Assembly: GCF_000165425.1 (NCBI RefSeq)
Contig: NW_001799289.1
Location: 410,603-474,602, forward strand
From: Paramecium tetraurelia
Lineage: Eukaryota > Ciliophora > Oligohymenophorea > Peniculida > Parameciidae
Direction: 5' to 3'
DNA length: 64,000 nt
Shown here: in pieces, positions 50,123 through 64,000 of the stretch
How positions within the stretch are numbered: the first letter of the stretch is position 1
Layout of the letters: each line of letters starts with the position of its first letter
Notes under the pieces: model-generated
Told to the model about the DNA's origin: nothing
The model's input: the letters and a program-made list of their open reading frames with translations, nothing else
Databases searched by the model: none
Made by a program: the position numbers and the translations under genes

Positions 50123-53100
50123 ATGAATTTTAAACTAACTATCTTCCTTTCTTTACTTACCTTACATTAAGCAACCAGATTTTCAACTATTAAATGCACT
50201 TGCGAACAATTACTATCCCAAAACGATTGTCAGACCAATAAATGTACATGGGACCAAAACAAATGCGTTATTAATATAGATACACCTGTGGAAATTAGTC
50301 CAATCGTCACTTATTGCACATATTTTGAGGATTTGGTTTGTTAATAATAGAACGGTTGTGCATGGATTGATAAACAATGCCTTCCATTCACAGGTTGTAC
50401 TGCCTATTCATTCACAGGATAAGAGGATTGCCAATATATTTCAAATAGATGTATATCAGACGGAGTGCATTGTATTGAAATCGGATTGTGTTAAGATTAT
50501 AAAACAGAGATAGGATGTGTAAAGAATAAAAATAATAAACTATGTTATTGGAATGTAGATAAGTGTTAAGATATTTAAGAGTGTTCTCAAATATCAAAAA
50601 CTCTATAAAGTGATTCAGAATGTAGATCTCAATTGACAAAATGTACAGTAGCATAATAAGGTGGTTGTGTGGACAGTGGAGATGCATGTTCAAATCAGAA
50701 ACTGGAGATTCAATGTGTTTGGGATAAAAGTAAATAGTAATCCTGTGCATGGATCAATGAGAAATGTGTGAGTAGAATATGTTCAAATACACCTGCAACC
50801 TATACTACATTCGAGTAATGCAATACTTATCTGCCTACTTGCACTGTTCAATTGAATGGTGGATGTGTGAATATCAGTTCCTGTGAGAATATTAAGGTTG
50901 AGATGGGTTGTGTTATGAATATGAATAAACAGCCATGTATTTGGATTGAGAACACGTGCATAGATAAGTAATGTTCAAAGGCTCCTGCAAAATTCGATAC
51001 AAATGAAAAATGCAAGAAAATAAATAGCAATTGTGTGACTACATAGAATGGATGCGTGGAATAGTTAAATTGTGAATCTTCAAAGCTGTAAATAGGATGT
51101 GTGGATATGGTGGATGGTACTAAATGTTATTGGAATGGATCTAAATGTGTTTAAAAGACATGTTCGAACAACACCACCATAAAGACAGAAGCTGAGTGTC
51201 AATTGTATTCTAGTGGTTGCATTTTGAATGTAACAGCTTAGAGTGGATGTCTCGACAAGATTTGTGAGAATGTTGTACAATAGGAGTAATGTGTAGTGGA
51301 TAAGTCCAACAATAAGTGTTCTTGGAAGAGTACTTGTTTTACTAAGAGTTGCAATACTGCTCCGAAGACTTTTACAACAAGCAACGAATGCAAATCTCAC
51401 ATGAATACTTGTGTCTTAGATACCTCAGGACAGGGTTGCATGACTATTAGGTTAACATGCCAGGCCTATACATCAGAGAAGTCATGTTTCATGATAAAAG
51501 GTGGGTAGTATTGTCATTGGCAGGACAAGAAATGCATTGATAGGACTTGTAGTATGGCTAGTGTGAGTTTGAATAGTAGTCAGCAATGTCAATAGTTCAA
51601 ACCGGATTGCATAGTGGGTAACAATTCCCAAGGATGCATGGATTTGACTAAGAATTGCGAGGATAGAAGATTACAGGCTAATTGTGAGTATGGTGATAAA
51701 CCAGTGTGTATTTGGAATGTGACTAGATGTGTTTAGTAATCATGTGAAAGTGCGAGTGTTGTTGGATCACCAAATTATTTGTCTGTTTTTGATTAGTCGT
51801 CTTGTCTGTCTTATATGGATAATTGTATACCGAACAACTTGGGTAATGGATGTACAGCTAAACCTTCATCTTGTACTCAATTAAGTATCAATAATTGTAT
51901 TGCTGCTCAATCTAATGATTGCATCTGGGTGAATGGACAATGCAGAGACAAAATATGTATAAATCTGATTGGATCCTCTCATCAAGAATGCTCGAATGAA
52001 TTGTCCAGTTGTACAGTAAATGTAAGTCTAAATGGCTGCATTTCATTGTCAGCTAAATGTTCATCTTACACTGTATCACAATAATGTCATTTAACATCTA
52101 CTAGTGTGTAATGCTTTTGGAATGGTACTCAATGCAGAGATGCTATTTGTAGTGATGCCTCTGATTCATCAGATTATGATACACATGAGGAATGTAATGC
52201 ACTCAATTCCTCATGCACTGTTGTGAGTAAGGTTGGATAGTAAGGATGTGTGGAGAAGTACTCGACTTGTGAGAGTTATAAGTAATCATACCAATGTCAT
52301 CAATCTTCGAATTCTGTCCAATGCCTTTGGATTAATGATGGTTGCTATTAGGTCTCCAGTTTGACATGTGGAGATATCAAAATACCCATCTATAATGATG
52401 CCAATTGCAGTAGCATTTTACCCAATTGCAAATCGAATGTTACTCAAACTGGGTGTATTAGTAAGGCATGCACAGATTACAGTTATACAAATAAGGTTGA
52501 TTGTGAAGCATTGAGTGGATGCACTATTAATGCTGATCTCAATAAATGCATTACTAAATAGGATTCATGTTCAGCATATAGTTCTGATCCCACTTAATGC
52601 AAATACTCCAAAGAAGGAAACTGTGTAATGAAGGGTCTAACTTGTGTGTGGACTCATTTGGATTGTGCCTCTATTTCAACTCCAGTTGTTGATAACGATT
52701 GCTTTGTCAAGAGATCATTCTGTAAGATGTTAGTGACTGATCAAGGGAACAAATGCATTGCAAGAGATTGCACTGAATATGCTGATGTCACTCCAACCTC
52801 ATTTAGCATCTGTTAAGAATATGATTATTCTTGTGTCAACAATAGAAACAACAATGGATGTATTACTATGCAATAGTACTGTAGTGATGCAGGAGATGCT
52901 GCATGTGTTTATTCAAAAAAGGAAGGACTTTGCAAATACACTGGCTCTGTCTGTGTGGCTGTTGCTACTGCCAATACTAAAAATTGTAATTTAGTTGTAG
53001 AGGCTGGACTTACCTTTAAGAAATGTTAAGATTACTCCAACAATTATTGCAGTGTCAATAGAGCCAATTCTGCCTGTGTCAATATCAAAGCATAATGTTC

Positions 53101-56100
53101 GGAATATACCAATTTATCTGATTGCCATTCCTCATCATCTGGCATGTGCATTCAAACTCAATAGAATGATAGTGGAGCATCCTGCACTAATGTCACCAGC
53201 TCTGTTTTATGTAGTAAGTTATTTATTGGATAATCCTCTACTTACACTCATGAAATCTGTGAATCATTGAAGAATACTTGCACCAATAATTCAAATTCCA
53301 GTTGCAAAGACAAAACTTGTTTGAATACAAATACTGCACTCACTACTCATGCTTAATGCAATGCCTGGCTGAAAACATGCACTGTCAATACTACCAATAA
53401 TGGATGTGTCGAGATGAAGCAAACTTGTCTAGAATAAAGTGTCACTGCCTGTTTATAGGCGAGTGAAGGTTCATGCATTGTTTATGATAATAAATGCATG
53501 AAATTTACTTGCTAGAAATTACCCAACACTTTAACAACACATTCTCAATGTGAAACATAGAATAATTAATGCACTGTTGCCACTTTTGGAGGGTGCATTG
53601 TCAAATCTAGCAATTGCAATACCTACAAAACATAATTACAATGTAGTTTCAATCTAGATGATAAGAAATGCTGGTGGAATCAATACAATATGACATGTGT
53701 CAATCTATAGTGTGATCTTATTGAATAGACTACCGATTACAATACTCACAGTAAATGTTATAATGCATCTACAAACATAAAATGCACAGTATCATCCAGT
53801 GGAAGTGGCTGTCAACAATTGAAAGTATGTACTGATTACACATTTCAAGGACAGTGTGTCATTGATAAATATAATAAACCTTGTGTTTGGAATGACAATG
53901 TGACTCCCAGTGTCTGTTAATTGAAATCCTGTGAGGCTGCATCATACACATTCACAACTCACGATGAATGCTAAGCATTCGATTCAACCTGCACACTGTA
54001 AACCAAATACAACTCTGATACTTCCACTCAAATAAACAGTGGATGTTAGATACTAAGCATAAATTGTTCTGATTATTAATTTGAATAACAATGTTACTTG
54101 AATAAGAGTAACAAATAATGTAAATGGGTGGACAATCTATGTATAGATTTCGGTTGCAAAACTGCTCCTAAGACTTCAGATTATTCTACTCATGAGAATT
54201 GTTAATCCTATCTGAATACATGCACTGTCAACTATGATTTGTTGGGTTGTTTGACTATACCTACTACCTGCTCGGATATTTTCTATCAAGTACAATGTTT
54301 CAAGGATATCAATAATAATGAATGCTATTGGTTTGATTCAAAATGTCAGCAAAAAAAATGCGAAAATGCTCCAAGTAATATTAATACTAAGTTATTATGT
54401 GAATAATGGCTACCTTAGTGCACTGCTGAAGATATTAGTAAATGTAAAACCATCACCTGTGAAGACTACACCTATACCACTGATTTAGAATGCAGATAAT
54501 AGATTTCTAATTGCACTACTGATGGAACTAAATGTGTGACGAAAGGATCATGTGCTGAAGCATTAAGTGAAATTGGGTGTGATAAATCAATCAATAATGA
54601 ACAATGTTATTGGAACAAGACCTATTGTACTTTGAAGGTATGCAATCTAGTAACCAAAGAAGTCGATTGCACTAATAGTTATAACAATATTATATGTGTT
54701 TGGGACAACAATAAATGTAGAAACATAGGAGAATGCTATGATTACAATGGTACATCCCATAAAGAATGTTAAGCCTTCAATACATTATGTACCTTTGATG
54801 ATAACAAAAAATGTAGAAAGTTAAGAAAATGCAATGAATATTCAAAATAAGACTACTGCATTTTGGGTTTGGATGGACCATGTCTATGGATTGAACAATT
54901 AAATATTTGCCATTAATACACATCTTGCAATAGTGTTAAGTTTTAGACGCATATTGAATGTTAATAGGTCTCAAAATAATGCACTACAGATGGCTTATAA
55001 TGTGTCCCTCTTACTCTTTGTTCTGAAACTAATACCACTGGAGGTTGTATTGATGGCATTGATGGAAGTTGTATGCAAACAGTTGCTGCTTTGAATTCAA
55101 CTCAATCACCAATTTGTAAACTCTTCACAAGTTGTGTAGAAGCTTACTATTTAACCCACATTGAATGCCAGTATGCCAATAAAAATTGCACAACTAATGC
55201 TGTCAGTGGTTGTATTAATCTGAATCAATGCACTTAATATCAGAGACAGGAATCCTGTTAATTAGACATTAATGGAGTATAATATCAAGACAACCTCATC
55301 ATAGCCACAGGGAAATGCATTTGGGATAATGGGCTATGCAGAGGTTAAATCTGCTCTGACTTTAGTGGTATTACTAATGAACAATGCAACAAGTTCCTTT
55401 CGACTTGCACCTTCAATGGTGTTAAATGTATTCCCAAATAAAACTGTTATTAATATACTTCATCAGCTATGTGTGCAGTTGCATATGGACTAGAGGGTAA
55501 ATGTAACTGGAACATTGCCCTTGATAAATGTTTAAAGCTGACTTGCGATGATATTTAAAATGGAATCACTTAGGCCTTATGTTAAAATACCTTATCCAAT
55601 TGTATCACCAATGGGGTCAATTGCATTAGTAAAGATACTTGCTCTAGATACATCACTAAAATTGCTTGCAATGTAGGAGGAACAGATGGCATTTGTGTAT
55701 GGAATGCTAAAAATTCTTCATGTTCCTTGATGTTGTCATGCACTTAGGCAGATGATGATTAAGAAGCTTGTCTATAGGCTAGTGATCGATGTGCTATCAA
55801 ATATGCTACAAGTCAATCCACCAGTTCTTGTTATTCACACACTTGTGATACTTATCTAAATAGTAATGGCTTATGCAAATCGTTCAACAATTGGAATTAC
55901 TCTTCCAAAACAGCATGCTCCTTTACTTAAGGTAAATGCACTGAAATTGATCTCTCCACTCTTACCGAATAATAATGCTTTACTACTTCAGAGTACTCCT
56001 ATACTTGGAATACCAGTAAAAATAAATGCTAATCCTGTGTCGCACAAAATAATAACAATAATAACTCTAATTAAACAAATACAAATCCCAATGTTACCAC

Positions 56101-56170
56101 ACCATCTTAGAATGTTGACTTCGGATATATGATACAAACTGTAATGTATCTCTATTTGATTTCTAATTGA
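50123..56170 (+). CDS. Giant cysteine-rich surface-antigen-like protein
   Basis: One uninterrupted frame of 2,015 aa with no intron. A signal peptide (MNFKLTIFLSLLTLHQAT) is followed by about 27-30 tandem cysteine-rich repeats (~65-70 residues) of Paramecium surface antigen type, for example NKCTWDQNKC, NGCAWIDKQCLPFTGC and CIWVNGQCRDKIC. The C-terminus has an Asn/Thr/Pro-rich spacer (NNNNSNQTNTNPNVTTPSQN) and a terminal hydrophobic segment (MIQTVMYLYLISN), consistent with a GPI-anchor signal. N-terminal repeats align with the other surface-antigen-like gene (NGCAWIDKQCLPFTGCTAY against NGCAWFENKCLMFTGCTSY), so the two are paralogues. Its frame is intact while many neighbours have apparent indels. 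Repeats are divergent, unlike the near-identical central repeats of classical serotype antigens. Confidence 0.94.
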
Positions 56171-56669
56171 TCTATTCATTTTTAATTAAATTATCCATAT
56201 CTACTAATTTATCACATTGAATATAATTAAAAGATTTTAATGCTCGCACATAAAATGTAAATTCAAGCATATCTTGTTATCTTGCTTAACAACTCTAATT
56301 GATTGAATCCACTTAATTCGAATACTTGTGTGCTCGAAATATCAAATCAATTCAATCCATATTATATTTTTATTAGTTCATTATTTATGTCTCCATCGTA
56401 TTCAATCTTCTATGAAATATCTTGGAGTACATGACTTTTTTATACAGTTTTTATTGAATAATTAAAAATGGCAGATTTGAAGATTGAATATAGGTAAATA
56501 AATAATAAAGGAAATGGAAATAATAATAGTTGATATTTGTATTGAATATGTATATAAAATATATAATTAATTATAAATTGTATTTGTATAATTCTATTAT
56601 GAAACTTGAAATTTAATGTAAATCTATTATCAAATTCAATTAATTATAACAAACATTACAGCATATCTC
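56171..56669. other. Intergenic, includes left arm of inverted repeat
   Basis: About 500 bp after the giant surface-antigen gene. The last 158 bp are the 5' part of the inverted repeat described separately; the rest shows no gene. Confidence 0.5.
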
Positions 56670-56715
56670 ATGAACTTCATCATCATTACCTTACTTATCA
56701 TCCCAAACTATGCTT
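56512..56715 (+). repeat. Left arm of 204-bp inverted repeat
   Basis: Reverse-complementary to 58544-58747, with one mismatch noticed (TTGATATTTGT here versus the equivalent of TTGATATATGT). It spans 158 bp of upstream sequence plus the first 46 nt of the coding region (signal peptide) of the gene at 56670. Weaker similarity continues outward on the promoter side with indels; similarity falls sharply after the codon for Ala in PNYA. Confidence 0.9.
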
Positions 56716-57144
56716 TATCATCATCTAACAGTTTATTCTATTTTTAAAAAGATTTAAATAAAGAATTTTTAAGTGAAATTATTGATGGGGAAGTTTAGGT
56801 AAGATGGAGAACTGTTTTAATTTTATTTGGTCACCCTGATATTATATTTTAACTAAAGGATAGAAGAGAAGTTTTAGTAATAGGATTCCATGGAAATAGT
56901 GATAGGTATGATACCTACAGAATTAATGTTGATTAATTTCTCTCATAAGCCTAATCTATTTATTATAAGACAGAGTATCACTAACTCAGAAAGTAACTAT
57001 TTATTTATAAAAGAAAGGCCAATTACGGTTTTAAAGTTGTTGGAAAAAGTAAAATCTATTGCAATGAGATAAAGCTACCATCTCTTTAATAATAATTGTC
57101 AAACAAGTGCTAAAGAACTTAAAGAGGAATTATGTTTTATTTGA
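56670..57144 (+). CDS. Small secreted protein, paralogue of the facing minus-strand gene
   Basis: About 157 aa. A signal peptide (MNFIIITLLIIPNYALSSS) is identical in its first 15 residues to that of the gene at 58089-58589. The mature part aligns but is divergent: FLSEIIDGEVQVRWR versus FLSEIINENIQIKWR, then IIFQLKDRREVLVIGFH versus ILFSLKDQQEILVIGFN. One extra base (T run near 57008) must be removed to continue as PITVLKLLEKVKSIAMRQ and end at TGA 57144; without it the frame runs to 57335 with no similarity to the paralogue. No known domain. Secretion is predicted from the signal peptide; function unknown. Confidence 0.7.
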
Positions 57145-57555
57145 AATAATAATAGTCTCTTTAAATAGATCTAAAACTTTCTGATTTCTACGTCTAGTTC
57201 TTACAAAAATACTAAATTGTTATTCTCATCCTTTTTCATTAAATTTACTTGAAATCATAAAAAAGAAAATCAACCTTTGTATTAAATTTATCACTTTTAA
57301 TTTAAAAGTTTGTTTTCTGCTTTCTTCTCCTTTGAATGTCCATTTAACAATATATAAATAATTATTAAGTTTGAAAAATCCTATTCTTTTTGTAATATAT
57401 CATGAAATCCTCCATATATTAATTGATTGTTCCAGTTGCAATAAGATAGTTAATTGCATTGAAAAATAAATATTAAAATAATATAGATGATCAAAGTTTC
57501 TATATTGATTTTGAAAAAGACTTAGAAATTATATAAAGTGAATGTTATGTATAAC
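57145..57555. other. Intergenic, no supported gene
   Basis: About 410 bp, AT-rich, between the secreted-protein gene and the small acidic protein gene. An uninterrupted frame of the former extends into it but is out of phase with its paralogue. Confidence 0.4.
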
Positions 57556-57792
57556 TCATAAATCATGTGGTTGAAGATCATCTGCATAATCATCAATGTC
57601 TTCAACATCATCTTCCTCTTCTTCTTCATCTTCTTTGATCTCAATTGGATTAGCATCAGAATTAAATATTTGTTCTTTGACTTTCTCATCATAGGCTGCT
57701 TACCTTTAGATCAAAGATTCCTCATCAAGAATTTGTTTAGGTTTTTCCCATGCAGCATTAGGTGTTCGAACTAATCGAATAATTAAACTCAT
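57556..57792 (-). CDS. Small acidic protein
   Basis: 78 aa, single exon, clean frame: MSLIIRLVRTPNAAWEKPKQ, then ILDEESLIQRQAAYDEKVKE and a very acidic tail (KEDEEEEEDDVEDIDDYADD). The basic N-terminal third with conserved-looking WEKP and the acidic tail suggest a conserved small protein, but no family is recognised. It lies inside the loop of the large inverted repeat, between the two secreted paralogues, on the same strand as the second. Confidence 0.6.
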
Positions 57793-58088
57793 TATTTATA
57801 TGTTTAAATAATTAACAGTTTTTAATATTATAATTAATTTATAATTACAAGTGCAACTAGATCTTAAAGCCTCATTTTCTAAGTAATTTCAAAATTTGAA
57901 GAGAGAATATTATAGTTTAGTTAATGATTGAGTATATTCTATTATTCAATTAAACTATTTTAGATATTTTGAACAATTTGAATATTATGGGAGAATTTAT
58001 TGTAGCTTATAATTAGAATGCTTTAATATTATATTCTGCAAACAAGAGTAACCAAAAGGTAAAGATTATATATTTAATGACAATATTT

Positions 58089-58589
58089 TCAATTATTTAA
58101 AAGCGATATGAGTTATTGAACATTATCACTACTAATAGTAGTCTCTTAACATTAGGGTTTATCAGCAACTTGATCTGCTATTTACAACACCTTAAGAACT
58201 GAAAATTACTTTTTAAGCTGTATATGATCTGTTCGATTGTAAATTTTCAAGGGTTAGAAGGAACGAACTCTAATTCTGGTAGCATAATATTGATGACCGT
58301 CTTGATTGAACCCTATTACTAAGATTTCTTATTAGTCTTTTAAACTAAATAGAATATCAGGTAATTCAATAGTATCATTTAAAAATGGCGCCCTTCTCCA
58401 TTTTATTTAGATATTCTCATTTATGATTTCACTTAAGAAAGCTTCATCAATAATTTGATTGTCATTTAATAAAGGGTTTGGATGATATTACTTATAGGAT
58501 TAATAAGTTTAATATTTGTATTTTGGATTTGAGCTTGATGTGGAAGCATAGTTTGGGATGATAAGTAAGGTAATGATGATGAAGTTCAT
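58089..58589 (-). CDS. Small secreted protein, paralogue of the facing plus-strand gene
   Basis: 166 aa, single exon, intact frame. Signal peptide MNFIIITLLIIPNYASTSSS; then a Tyr/Asn/Gln-rich stretch (KYKYQTYQSYKQYHPNPLL) absent from the paralogue, then the shared region FLSEIINENIQIKWRR, ILFSLKDQQEILVIGFN and TRIRVRSFQPLKIYNRTDH. Ends VQQLISLLNN at TGA 58089. The upstream 158 bp and signal-peptide codons are practically identical to those of the other copy, whereas the mature part is only moderately similar, so the copies share a recently homogenised front end. No known domain; likely secreted. Confidence 0.75.
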
Positions 58590-58747
58590 GAGATATGCTG
58601 TAATGTTTGTTATAATTAATTGAATTTGATAATAGATTTACATTAAATTTCAAGTTTCATAATAGAATTATACAAATACAATTTATAATTAATTATATAT
58701 TTTATATACATATTCAATACATATATCAACTATTATTATTTCCATTT
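58544..58747 (-). repeat. Right arm of 204-bp inverted repeat
   Basis: Reverse complement of 56512-56715 with one difference noticed. Covers the signal-peptide codons and 158 bp upstream of the minus-strand secreted gene starting at 58589. Confidence 0.9.
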
Positions 58748-58933
58748 CTTTTATTATTTACATTTTTATATTTATTTACTCTATTCAATCTCATCTTCTT
58801 ATTATTCAAAATTCAATCTAAATTTTGAATATTGGATCAGATATCTATTTTAATATTGAATTTAAAAACACAACATTTTCAATACATTTCCTTTATCAAT
58901 TTGTTCACATATTTTGTTAATTAAAATTAAATT
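58590..58933. other. Divergent spacer containing right repeat arm
   Basis: About 340 bp between the secreted-protein gene and the bL12 gene. The first 158 bp are repeat arm; the rest is AT-rich without features. Confidence 0.5.
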
Positions 58934-59755
58934 ATGTTAACAAAAAGTATCAGATTATTCAGACAATTTAGATTTTGTTCAGCTATAGAAGAAATTACTA
59001 AAAAATAAGCTGAATGGTCAGCCATAGCAAAATAAAAAACATAATCGTAATTAAACCATTAATGTCAAGACAATAAGAATTTTTAGAATAAGCATTATCA
59101 TAAGACCAAAAATAAAGAGTGAAGGCTATAGCAGATGCTTGTTGTGAGCTGGATCTCTTTGAATTGTAATGTTTGATGAGCTTGTTGAATGAAAATCATT
59201 ACAAGGCTCAAGGAATTGGTCTCTTTTAGATTGATTCAAATTGGCCTGTAATCAAACAAAATGAAGTACCAACTTGGCCTCCAAAAGAGAAAGAGCAAAT
59301 CGAGGCATATATGAAAGAACTATTTGGAGAAAATGTCGTAAGATTCCTATCAAATTTCTTAGCCTGATTTCAAAGCCATTTTTGGAGGTGTTGGATCAAT
59401 CGGTAGTCAAGCTCCATCTCAAAGTGCTGCTTCAAGTGAAGCTCCTAAGTAGGAACAAAAGAAAGCAGAAGCTGCCCCTAAAGTTGAAGCCGAAGTAATT
59501 ATATAAGTAAACGAAGAAAAAAAATTACGATGTAGAGTTAAGCGCAATTGACGCAGCACAGAAAATTAAGATCATCAAAGAAGTTAGGTACTCAATGAAA
59601 GTCATTATAGATAATTACTTAATCTTGGATTGAAAGAAGCCAAAGACTTGGTCGAGAAATTGCCAGCCAATTTGGGTAAGCAAGTGCCAAAGGAGAAAGC
59701 CAATGAATTAAAAGAAAAGTTAACAGCTGCTGGTTGTACAATTAATTTGAAGTGA
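58934..59755 (+). CDS. MRPL12: Mitochondrial ribosomal protein bL12
   Basis: About 257 aa. A basic N-terminus without acidic residues ([16 protein letters not shown]) looks like a mitochondrial presequence. A middle region ([40 protein letters not shown]) is followed by an Ala/Glu/Lys hinge ([12 protein letters not shown]) and the bL12 C-terminal domain: [34 protein letters not shown] and [18 protein letters not shown]. Introns 59338-59362 (25 nt) and 59588-59610 (23 nt). An A is missing near 59035 and one A is surplus in the A8 run near 59517. bL12 forms the ribosomal stalk that recruits translation GTPases; the organellar location is inferred from the presequence and bacterial-type sequence. 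Confidence 0.9.
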
Positions 59756-59783: not shown

Positions 59784-62457
59784 TCATAAATTTGGCAATA
59801 ATTCTTTAAATTCTTTTAAGTTTAATGGTTTGGATAATACATAAGTCATCCCTGCATCTAAACAATTTATTACATCTGATTCAGCTGTGAATGCTGTTAA
59901 ACCAATGATCTTGATAAGAGGGATCTTCTAGGCCTTTATCATCTCTAAGATGAGTTTTGTTGTCTCAATCCCATTTAATATCGGCATTTGGTAATCCATC
60001 AAAATCAGATCAAGTAATTAACAATGATCACAGCACTTTTATAATTGGCCTATCATATCTATTGCTTATTAGCCATTGAAAGCCTATAATTAAAATATGT
60101 ATACTGACCACCAAAACTTCAAAGTCCAGTTTTTGCAAAAGCATACACAACGAGTGTTAATTAAAAACCTCATCATCTACTGAAAGTATCCTTCTGCAGT
60201 GACATTTCTTTTTTTATACAAAATTCAATAGATTAAACTCACTTTCCTTATCTTCCAATTATTTTAACTATTTTATACTCAATACCTGCGATTTAGAACT
60301 CTTACATGACTTTTGATCTTTAAATTGATGTTGTATTGAGGGATAATCATACGATTATCCTAATTGCCTATAATTAATATCTGGACTTTAATCTGAGCTG
60401 GGTGAATCATTCAAATAGCTTATTAGTTTAGGATCTGATGCCTGCAATTCTTTAACTTTACTATTCAGAGTCAAAAATTCGCTTGATTAATCTATAATAT
60501 CAGTAAAGAGTTCTTTTGTCTTCAATTAAGGAAAAATTATATCATTGTTCTTGTGATTTGACATCTTCTTAACTGATGTAACAATTACAGTTCCAATTTA
60601 TATTTTATTTTAAGAATGGATTTTTGCTCCAATTATATCTGATTTTCTAGAAGCCAACATACATTATCCTCTATTTTAGTCATCCACAAAAATGGTTACT
60701 TTTGTTCCTAAATTCTTCCCTTTACTTTTTATCGACAGTAACTATTTATTTGTATTGGCACACAGCTTTGTTAATAAAATTGATGATATCAACAGTCCAA
60801 ATCCATGCCAGCCTTAATTAAATACAAAATCAGATGTCTCCTAAAATTGATATAAAGTTCTCTAAATTCTCTCTAATTTTTCTTGTTCAATGCCAATCCC
60901 CTCATCCTTAATGGATATTTTCAAGGTGTTCTAATCCATTGATTTAAAATTAACAAACACATTACCTCCGTATGAAAACTTTAAAGAATTTGCTAATAAA
61001 TTTACTATGATTTAAATTAGGCGATTATAATCAGTATTAAAAGTTGAAAAATGATTTTTCTTCATTACAATTACCAAACCCATATTCTTCATCTCAAACT
61101 ATTATTGAAACAGCCCACTAATCTCATTTATTAATTCTTTGAATGTAAAATCTCTGGTCTAAAGGTAAAATGAATTCGCATAATAATTTGAAAAATCAAT
61201 TATATCATTAATGATATATGATTGTAATTTCAATGAGTTGAATGCTGGTTACAAATATTGATTTTTGATATAATTATCTACTGTTGAGTCGGACAGTGTT
61301 GATTCTATTAAATTTTTGGCACTGTTTAAAGGAGTTTTCATTTCATGAGAAAATGACTCAATTATTTTTGATTTGAAATCATCTTTAATTTTCTATTGAG
61401 ATAATTCTGTCTATTTGGAGATGTCATTTAAAAAGATAGTGATCTCTTCATTATCACTAATTATCTATCCACTCAAAGAAATGGGATTGCTATTCTATAA
61501 CTTAAGAGTGCAAGATATATCAAAAGCTTTGTTGCTTGAGGCTTATATCAATGAATCATAGTACCCTTATTTATATTCATTGATAATTTACTCTAAAGTC
61601 TTAGTCTGTATTTTGATAACTTGCTTTGTAGATTCTAAGTTTTTAAATTCTCTACAAGACAGATCTCTTTATTTGTCCCTCAGTCTTTTTATTTAAAGTG
61701 AGGCACTTTTAAAGTCTTCTGTACATTATTATGGTATTTAAAAGTTTAATTGGGATAAAATAATTTTTTACAATTCATCCTCTACAGAACATTTAAACAA
61801 TTTCAAAAAGCATTAATTAATGTATTTAACACATAAATTGGAATAATCCAAAATAAGTACTTATACATTCATGTCTTAAATTCTCTATCTCCAGATGTTG
61901 TCACTTTTTTTGGAGTAATTAGAGGGAGATTATAATTCATTAAGTTGGGATTGCAAATATTGATTTTTGTTTTAGGTTTTGCCTTTGCTTTGAGTAAATT
62001 TCAAAATGTCTATGCCTATTAAAACAAAGGAGCAAACAAAACTTATTGCATTTATCTATACCAAACTAACTGATAAAATGAGGGTCAATTTCCCAAGAAT
62101 GTTTGCAATTAGGGTAATTTTAGCTAAGCATTGATCTGCTTTTATCTCCAATGGATAACACATCTAAATGGATAAGAATATGCAACTGGGTAATTATATT
62201 ATTGCAATTGCAAGTATCTCGAGTATCCTATCTGCAAACCTCACTTTCAATATGATATTTGGAGTAATTTTATTCTATAAAAGATACAACAGACAGAATA
62301 TGAAAATGTCGAATATTACCTTTAAAATAATAACAATTAAGCTAGTCATTATTTCTGTTAATTCTTAAATTAGACTAATATTTAGCACTATTTATGTTGC
62401 TAATAGGAAAAGATTAGTCTGAAGAAATGTATCTTTAGTTTATGGTTTCTTGTTCAT
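59784..62457 (-). CDS. Hybrid sensor histidine kinase
   Basis: 882 aa with one intron (60084-60108, 25 nt) and an intact frame. Residues ~10-175 form several membrane helices (NLFLLATQIVLNISLI, SLIVIILKVIFDIFIFCLLY, ILAIAIIQLPSCIFLSI, VCSFVLIGIDIL). A linker leads to a histidine kinase core: H-box FSHEMKTPLN with the phospho-acceptor His near residue 371, N-box LANSLKFS, G1 DEGIGI and G2 WHGFGLLIS. A low-complexity linker precedes KKCHCRRILSVDDEVFN and a receiver domain whose phospho-acceptor Asp is near residue 813 (LILMDYQMPILNG), with Lys in LSKPLNLKEF. Autophosphorylation and intramolecular relay to the receiver are expected; no downstream phosphotransfer protein is in the window. The ligand is unknown because no periplasmic-type sensor is seen. 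Confidence 0.93.
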
Positions 62458-62613
62458 AATTAGTGATAATTATTGTTATTAAAATTAATATTGATCAAAT
62501 CAAAGTAAGGCCAATTGATTCATAATTAGCAAGTGTATAATAATTTAATTAACAGTAAAATCATTAATTTTTTTGAAAAACATAAAGTGTTAATATAAAA
62601 ATGGTTTAGTTTA

Positions 62614-64000
62614 TCAAATTAAAGTGAGAATTTCTTTAAATTCCTTTAGATTAAGTGGTTTATGTAGCACATCGCTCATTCCTGCTTTTAAGCAATTTTC
62701 AATATCATTCGAGTTAGTAAAAGCAGTTAAACCAACAATATGAATTCTGGGTAGTATGTTGTCATTCATCATTTTAATTAATTTCTCTGTTGCTTGACAA
62801 CCATTTAGAATAGGCATCTAATAATCCATCAAGATGAGAGTTAATAATGAACACTTCTTACTACATTTCTTTATGTTCAAAATATCTACACATGCTTATT
62901 GTCCATTGAATGCCTAAGATAACACATAAAATTGTTTACCAAAATTACTTCAAATCCCAATTTACACAAGAGCATCTAAATCGACTTTTGATTGAATATT
63001 TCATCATCAACAGACATAATTCGTTGACACTGACATTTCTTTCTTCTCTTATACGTTTATAACAGTTCTTCATCCTCCTGTTCTTCTGCCTACTTGATAA
63101 ACTGAATGCTAAGTATTTTGGAATTGTTAGATCTTTATGATGAATTTTCATTCCTGCTGAAATGTCTTTTTTCAATTATGACTTTTTAAGGGGAACTACA
63201 AACGATGTCAGTAATTAAAGAAGGCTATACAGGACTTAACAAACCAAATTTTTAATCTAATGAGTCATAAACAACACTTTCACTAAACATGGAATTGTCA
63301 TTTGATTTCTATGAACAAAGTTTAGTTTTTTATTTTTTTGGAAGACTCTTCAAACCTTAATCCGTTGTCTAAATAATTGTACCATTTAAATTATTAAGTG
63401 AGGTAGTTAAATGAACAGAACTTTGAAATCTTTATGTGTTTTACCTAATTGTAGGCTATTTAACACTGTTAAACTTCGGTAATAAATTCCTAATAAAAAA
63501 AGATACCTTTGAACCCATGTTAATTCCATCGGATTCAAACTTAATTGTACTTCTATCAGAGGGTCCCAATTTAGATACTAGCATTGCTGAAATCAATAAT
63601 CCAAATCCCTGCCAAGATTTATTTAATTGGATCTCCTTGTGATTCTTCAGATTGTTTAAATATGATTATATCTAGGTTATGTTCAGAGATGAAACCCCCT
63701 ATCCCATATCAGTCACAGTAAACTTCAGGATGTCTTTCGTATGAGATTAGATTTTCAAGACAATCAATCCTTCAGTTGAGAATTTGATGGAGTTTTGTAG
63801 TAAATTCACCAATATTTGCATTAGTTTACTATAGTCAGATATTACAGTAGCTGTACAACAATCCATTAGGTCTACTCTAAATTCAAGATTCTTCTCAGCA
63901 AATTACATTGTAAAGAGTGAATTAACTTCATTTATTAATTCTCTCATTGAAAATTCCTTAATCAAAAGTTCTAAATTGTTTGTACTTGAGGATGTGAAAT
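62614..64000 (-). CDS. Second hybrid histidine kinase, 5' part beyond window
   Basis: A paralogue of the gene just downstream, cut by the window edge. What remains starts after the H-box and includes N-box LLQNSIKFS, a G1-like DMGQGV (the usual I is Q), G2 WQGFGLLIS, a Ser/Lys linker, KKCQCQRIMSVDDEIFN and a receiver with Asp in LILMDYQMPILNG and Lys in HKPLNLKEF. One 26-nt intron (62914-62939) sits at the same receiver position as in the neighbour, just before AFNGQQA. The frame is intact as far as visible. The tandem copies are 157 bp apart (stop of this gene to start of the other), same strand, so they arose by tandem duplication. Whether the H-box is intact cannot be seen. Confidence 0.9.

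Follow-up and report, generated by a model that had tools for sequence, protein, structure and literature searches.

RESULTS

Two convergent genes with a small gene between them. The window (a 64,000-nt stretch of Paramecium tetraurelia DNA, positions 410603 to 474602 of the 494,621-base contig C167) carries two facing genes, which show long open frames when TAA and TAG are read as Gln (ciliate code 6). Gene 1 (56670..57144, plus strand) would encode, after splicing, a 149-aa presumed secreted protein, and gene 2 (58089..58589, minus strand) a 166-aa presumed secreted paralogue. The frame of gene 2 (58589-58089) is open from end to end and needs no intron. In gene 1, the frame beginning at the ATG runs to 57335 if unspliced and stops at the TGA at 57142-57144 if a putative 25-nt intron (56993..57017, plus strand; GTAACT...AAAG) is removed. 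The position of this intron is suggested by its length, its borders, the reading frame, and homology: with the intron removed, the C terminus of gene 1 aligns with gene 2 in a homologous frame. Several alternative GT..AG pairs would likewise reopen the frame. More than 95% of Paramecium introns are given as 20 to 34 nt long in the excerpted text of PMC11334263. The intron is absent from gene 2, and one of the two local duplicates may therefore have gained it or lost it.

The mature parts of the two proteins are homologous, aligning with a score of 181, compared to a mean of 31 and a maximum of 66 for shuffled sequences (0/1000 as high). This bears out the description, in an earlier note on this DNA, of facing genes whose products are moderately similar after the leader. 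Overall protein identity, leader included, is 44%, and the proteins hold only two (gene 1) and one (gene 2) cysteines. Database searches gave no match in Rfam across 56000-59500, none in PDB for the pair alignment, the spliced gene 1 product, or the last exon of gene 1, and none in NCBIfam for that exon or for gene 2. The best PHROGs matches (E 0.024 for gene 1 and 0.055 for gene 2) were taken as chance, and a scan for sigma-70 promoters (18 found versus 24.2 expected) was set aside as not meaningful for a ciliate.

The third small gene that had been reported between the pair (57556..57792, minus strand) is real and strongly constrained, since a copy elsewhere in the genome (C76:16087-16320 of assembly G000) is 87% identical to it, with an omega of 0.008 and a dS saturated at 3.6. 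Its 78-aa product has an acidic C terminus, no Pfam match, and only weak PDB matches (E 0.16 or worse).

The front ends of the two genes are nearly identical. Base-by-base alignment confirmed the inverted repeat with a single difference that had been noticed previously, and its length was corrected: the earlier count of 158 upstream plus 46 coding nt (204 nt) was one base short. Arm 1 (56511..56715, plus strand) and arm 2 (58544..58748, minus strand) each comprise 159 nt upstream of their gene and its first 46 coding nt, and they match at 204/205 positions in the register i <-> 115259-i. Arm 1 is identical to its partner over 56511-56536 and 56538-56715, leaving 56537 as the sole mismatch and 178 nt as the longest mismatch-free run. 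When the ragged edges were counted in, the repeat search returned the arm pair as 237 nt at 96% identity. The coding share of the arm, starting in gene 1 with the ATG at 56670, amounts to 15 codons plus one base, and the tract stops directly after MNFIIITLLIIPNYA, which by eye appears to be the end of a signal peptide, so that the coding portion of the tract is presumed to be the signal peptide itself. Beyond this point, the next 17 residues of gene 1 and the next 35 of gene 2 align poorly until FLSEII is reached. The upstream edge is softer than the coding edge, with 19 of 25 ungapped positions matching at 56487-56511.

Outside arm 1 lies a flank (56454..56510, plus strand) that is diverged from but similar to its partner at about 58749-58808 in a gapped alignment. 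For 100-nt outer flanks, 0/300 dinucleotide shuffles reached the observed score under either scoring, and for 200-nt outer flanks the counts were 0/300 and 3/300 under the two scorings. On the other side of the tract, in the mature coding sequence, 0/300 shuffles reached the score under both scorings. Diverged homologous sequence is thus found on both sides of the tract; the upstream flank is a short, AT-rich stretch and is therefore the weaker side compared to the mature coding sequence. In the 3' spacers, homology was not detectable (65/300 and 196/300 shuffles reached the scores).

Substitutions are concentrated outside the arms. The even spread of substitutions through arm and coding region that the earlier note had named as contrary evidence was not seen: the arms differ at 1 of 205 sites and the alignable mature core at 89 of 246 nt (82 codons; Fisher p=3e-26). 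Pairwise GY94 estimates for the core were a dS of ~1.26, a dN of 0.49, and an omega of 0.39. Fixing omega at 1 did not significantly worsen the fit (2dlnL 3.56), a comparison of low power at this dS and with 82 codons. Diversifying selection on the exported part, which had been offered as one explanation for the pattern, is thus unsupported. Codon usage shows the same division between arm and core. Among identical core residues other than M and W, 25/38 use the same codon, whereas all 14 non-Met codons of the arm are identical (p ~0.003 at the core rate).

At the mutation rate of 1.94-2.44e-11 per site per division given in the excerpted text of PMC11334263, one difference in 205 nt corresponds to ~1.0-1.3e8 divisions since the last exchange, an estimate whose error is at least of its own order because it is based on one substitution. 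We also considered, as a yardstick for upstream drift, the 140 nt preceding an L7/L12-like gene on C167 and on C76 (82/162 columns identical). It was discarded as unfit because collinearity breaks at this stretch, whose two copies may not be homologous.

The shared front end was found only at this locus. The 205-nt cassette was searched for in the whole assembly (69 Mb, 231 contigs) and was found at two places, with no third full-length copy; two further 30-nt matches come from a palindrome inside these two arms. These copy counts are lower bounds, because the search scores only the best candidates and passes over simple repeats and words of very high frequency. Protein searches of the genome returned the pair itself and one match on C17 at chance level (E 0.03), on the strand opposite a long open frame of coiled-coil-like sequence; this match was disregarded. 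The larger family of secreted proteins with shared leaders that had been proposed is therefore unsupported in this genome, with the cassette at two places and no third relative found. We also compared 149 kb with itself (84 kb of C167, including N runs, and 65 kb of C76) at an identity of >=88% and an E value up to 1e-10. Only three within-contig repeats emerged, namely, the arms of the gene pair, a 72-nt palindrome, and a 674-bp assembly-gap artefact.

The locus lies in a segment absent from the sister copy of the block. To the left of the pair is a surface antigen gene (50123..56167, plus strand; 2015 aa), which matches PF01508 (Paramecium_SA) in 24 stretches (E 1e-198) and, together with the use of code 6, by itself places the DNA in or very near Paramecium. 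C76 carries an inverted, collinear whole-genome-duplication copy of the block, with pieces of ~72-90% nucleotide identity. Collinearity breaks on the left at a coiled-coil-like gene (window 50131) and on the right at an L7/L12-like gene (from 58917), both named by eye, and on C76 these two genes are only 1.16 kb apart (C76:49449-50607). The ~8.8 kb at 50131-58917 that hold the surface antigen gene, the pair, and the middle gene are absent from the C76 sister locus. The single other copy found of the middle gene lies ~33 kb from that locus, outside the collinear order, so that one of its two copies has moved. No remnants of gene 1 or gene 2 were detected at the C76 locus in 12 frame comparisons with 100 shuffles each; the arm gave raw scores of 44 and 34 against it, without a shuffle control. 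The surface antigen gene was probably lost from C76, because it is retained together with its left neighbour on C62 and C15. Within ~10 kb on each side of these surface antigen paralogues, no relatives of the pair were found (best blastp E 1.3). To the right of the pair, at 60028-63947 (minus strand), are two tandem genes resembling sensor histidine kinases, whose C-terminal pieces are receiver-like. The first has HisKA and HATPase_c domains by Pfam, and the second, like the receiver pieces, was recognized by eye.

Gene 1 resembles PPPDE proteins in its last exon. The coding part of this exon (57019..57141, plus strand) contains the motif YHLFNNNC and is PPPDE-like below cut-off: PF05903 (PPPDE, Peptidase_C97) matched it with 20.5 bits (E 4.5e-4) and the whole spliced gene 1 protein with 16.2 bits (E 0.0096), against a cut-off of 29.2. 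Two PPPDE genes of this genome that score above the cut-off, on C213 and C227, were used for comparison. For the gene 1 exon, 0/2000 shuffles reached the score against each of them. Gene 2 had no PF05903 match in Pfam and did not match the C213 gene (1238/2000 shuffles were as good). In human PPPDE1, the site is given as Tyr101, Cys108, His38, and Glu47 (PMC3142127, as excerpted). Gene 1 likewise has YxLFxNNC, with Tyr 7 residues before Cys, as in Tyr101/Cys108, and by eye its His55, with Asp64 at +9, resembles His38/Glu47. Gene 1 differs from PPPDE proteins in being presumably secreted, in its sub-cut-off score, and in its N-terminal half, which is not significantly similar (65/1000 and 53/1000 shuffles) and whose best alignment leaves His55 unpaired. 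Gene 2, which lacks the NC motif, is without the corresponding His, Tyr, and Cys. It has Leu in place of His, and Val and Thr in place of Cys and Tyr; the latter two assignments depend on the alignment, because the C terminus aligns poorly and gene 2 has its one Cys ten residues earlier (KPQCQ), which an alternative alignment could place opposite. An AlphaFold2 prediction for the two sequences (gene 2 as the first row and, as the second, gene 1 translated with its intron retained) had a mean pLDDT of 33 and was unusable. On these grounds we class neither protein as a PPPDE member, and a pair made up of an enzyme and its dead twin is an unproven lead rather than a result.

DISCUSSION

Gene conversion classically leaves a near-identical tract between flanks that are homologous but diverged. 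Our best explanation for the shared front end, to which we assign a probability of roughly three-quarters, is that it was converted between paralogues within an older inverted duplication. The idea of conversion limited to the regulatory and secretion cassette had been raised in the earlier note, and it has become the best reading because older, diverged similarity surrounds the tract, a pattern that neither a plain recent duplication nor selection alone would explain. We hypothesize that the pair goes back to an old inverted duplication, after which the mature parts of the two small secreted proteins encoded by the convergent copies became divergent. From the sequence we infer a later event of interlocus conversion, of germline origin and with a direction from one copy to the other, in which the front of one gene (159 nt upstream and 46 coding nt) would have overwritten that of its partner. 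The converted tract may originally have been somewhat longer. Because the arms are inverted and separated by less than 2 kb, they could pair easily. The outcome today would be that two different cargoes share a promoter and an export signal, and we propose that the pair is, as a consequence, coexpressed and cosecreted.

Formally, the same tract could have arisen by capture, in which non-homologous repair attached a recent inverted partial duplicate, carrying promoter and leader, to a relative that had already diverged and previously possessed another front. The coding edge would fit such a junction, since the tract stops at or very near the presumed site of signal cleavage and is followed by poorly alignable residues in both proteins. 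However, diverged similarity persists beyond the upstream edge, which an unrelated acceptor sequence would not give, and the mature parts are homologous and lie in the same inverted layout; we therefore regard capture as unlikely. Still less likely is an assembly artefact, in which one consensus fills both arms or one arm is misplaced. The assembly does contain what appears to be an unmerged duplication just past the window: 674 bp are identical at window 63327-64000 and at 2307-2980 of L026 (G000:C167), on either side of a gap of 2306 N, and are most likely unmerged contig ends, an artefact rather than a duplication. The pair and the 5 kb on either side of it, however, are free of N runs (in the window N occurs only at 236-852, and the next gap follows after 64000), and the arms differ at 56537, as do their flanks and both coding regions.

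Two further explanations fare worse. Constraint can act on regulatory and signal sequences, and purifying selection alone might in principle have preserved an identical promoter and signal peptide in two genes that duplicated long ago. It would have to account for identity at 204 of 205 sites, the 14 non-Met codons among them, beside a core with a dS of ~1.26, and we consider it very improbable. A mobile element with long terminal inverted repeats is scarcely credible. The inverted termini of ~205 nt, 1.8 kb apart, have the appearance of such an element, but only two full-length copies were found in the genome, homology continues inward through the interior genes, none of the three genes has a Pfam transposase match, and no clear target-site duplication was found (the longest direct words shared by 56441-56520 and 58739-58820 are 7 nt and T rich). 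A terminal-inverted-repeat transposon was rejected on these grounds.

If conversion of the front end is combined with the PPPDE-like features of gene 1, a more speculative picture can be drawn, which as a whole we think unlikely. Gene 1 might encode a secreted hydrolase resembling a permuted papain and gene 2 a partner that lacks the catalytic residues. Repeated conversion of the front would then keep the two exported jointly in fixed proportion, for example, as an enzyme and its decoy or regulator, and if either gene were read through into the opposite arm, the transcript could fold into a hairpin of 205 bp and thereby bring about silencing of the two genes. Were the active/inactive reading true, the locus would show maintenance, at the level of DNA, of the cosecretion of an enzyme and a pseudoenzyme.

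Conotoxins and amphibian skin peptides are secreted peptide families in which a conserved leader precedes a variable mature part. The pair described here is similar in that the presumed export signal is conserved and the cargo is divergent. It differs in that two members were found, in that near-identity at the DNA level extends into the promoter, and in that the omega of the mature core gives no sign of positive selection. Within the ciliates, the pheromone genes of Euplotes, as described in the excerpted text of PMC9229436, encode small secreted proteins that are processed from signal-peptide-bearing precursors. By that description the presumed secreted products of the pair would resemble them, whereas the Euplotes pheromones are allelic and are disulfide-rich helical proteins, in contrast to the few cysteines of the pair. 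The type of event proposed is already known. Gene conversion between duplicates is described as common or widespread in post-whole-genome-duplication Paramecium species in the portions of PMC10195154 and PMC11334263 that bear on it; among the papers listed in PMC searches on Paramecium, including its gene conversion, and on leader or promoter conversion, no title or abstract opening concerned this locus, nor did any title among those listed on small interfering RNA (siRNA) and inverted repeats in Paramecium. Like the conversion of whole-genome-duplication paralogues in those two reports, the conversion proposed here would be set in the genus Paramecium, would act by the same mechanism, and would make duplicates or blocks seem younger than their true age. 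Unlike it, the present case would involve a local inverted duplicate and a tract of ~205 nt that stops at a presumed signal peptide, next to a remaining gene that is highly diverged.
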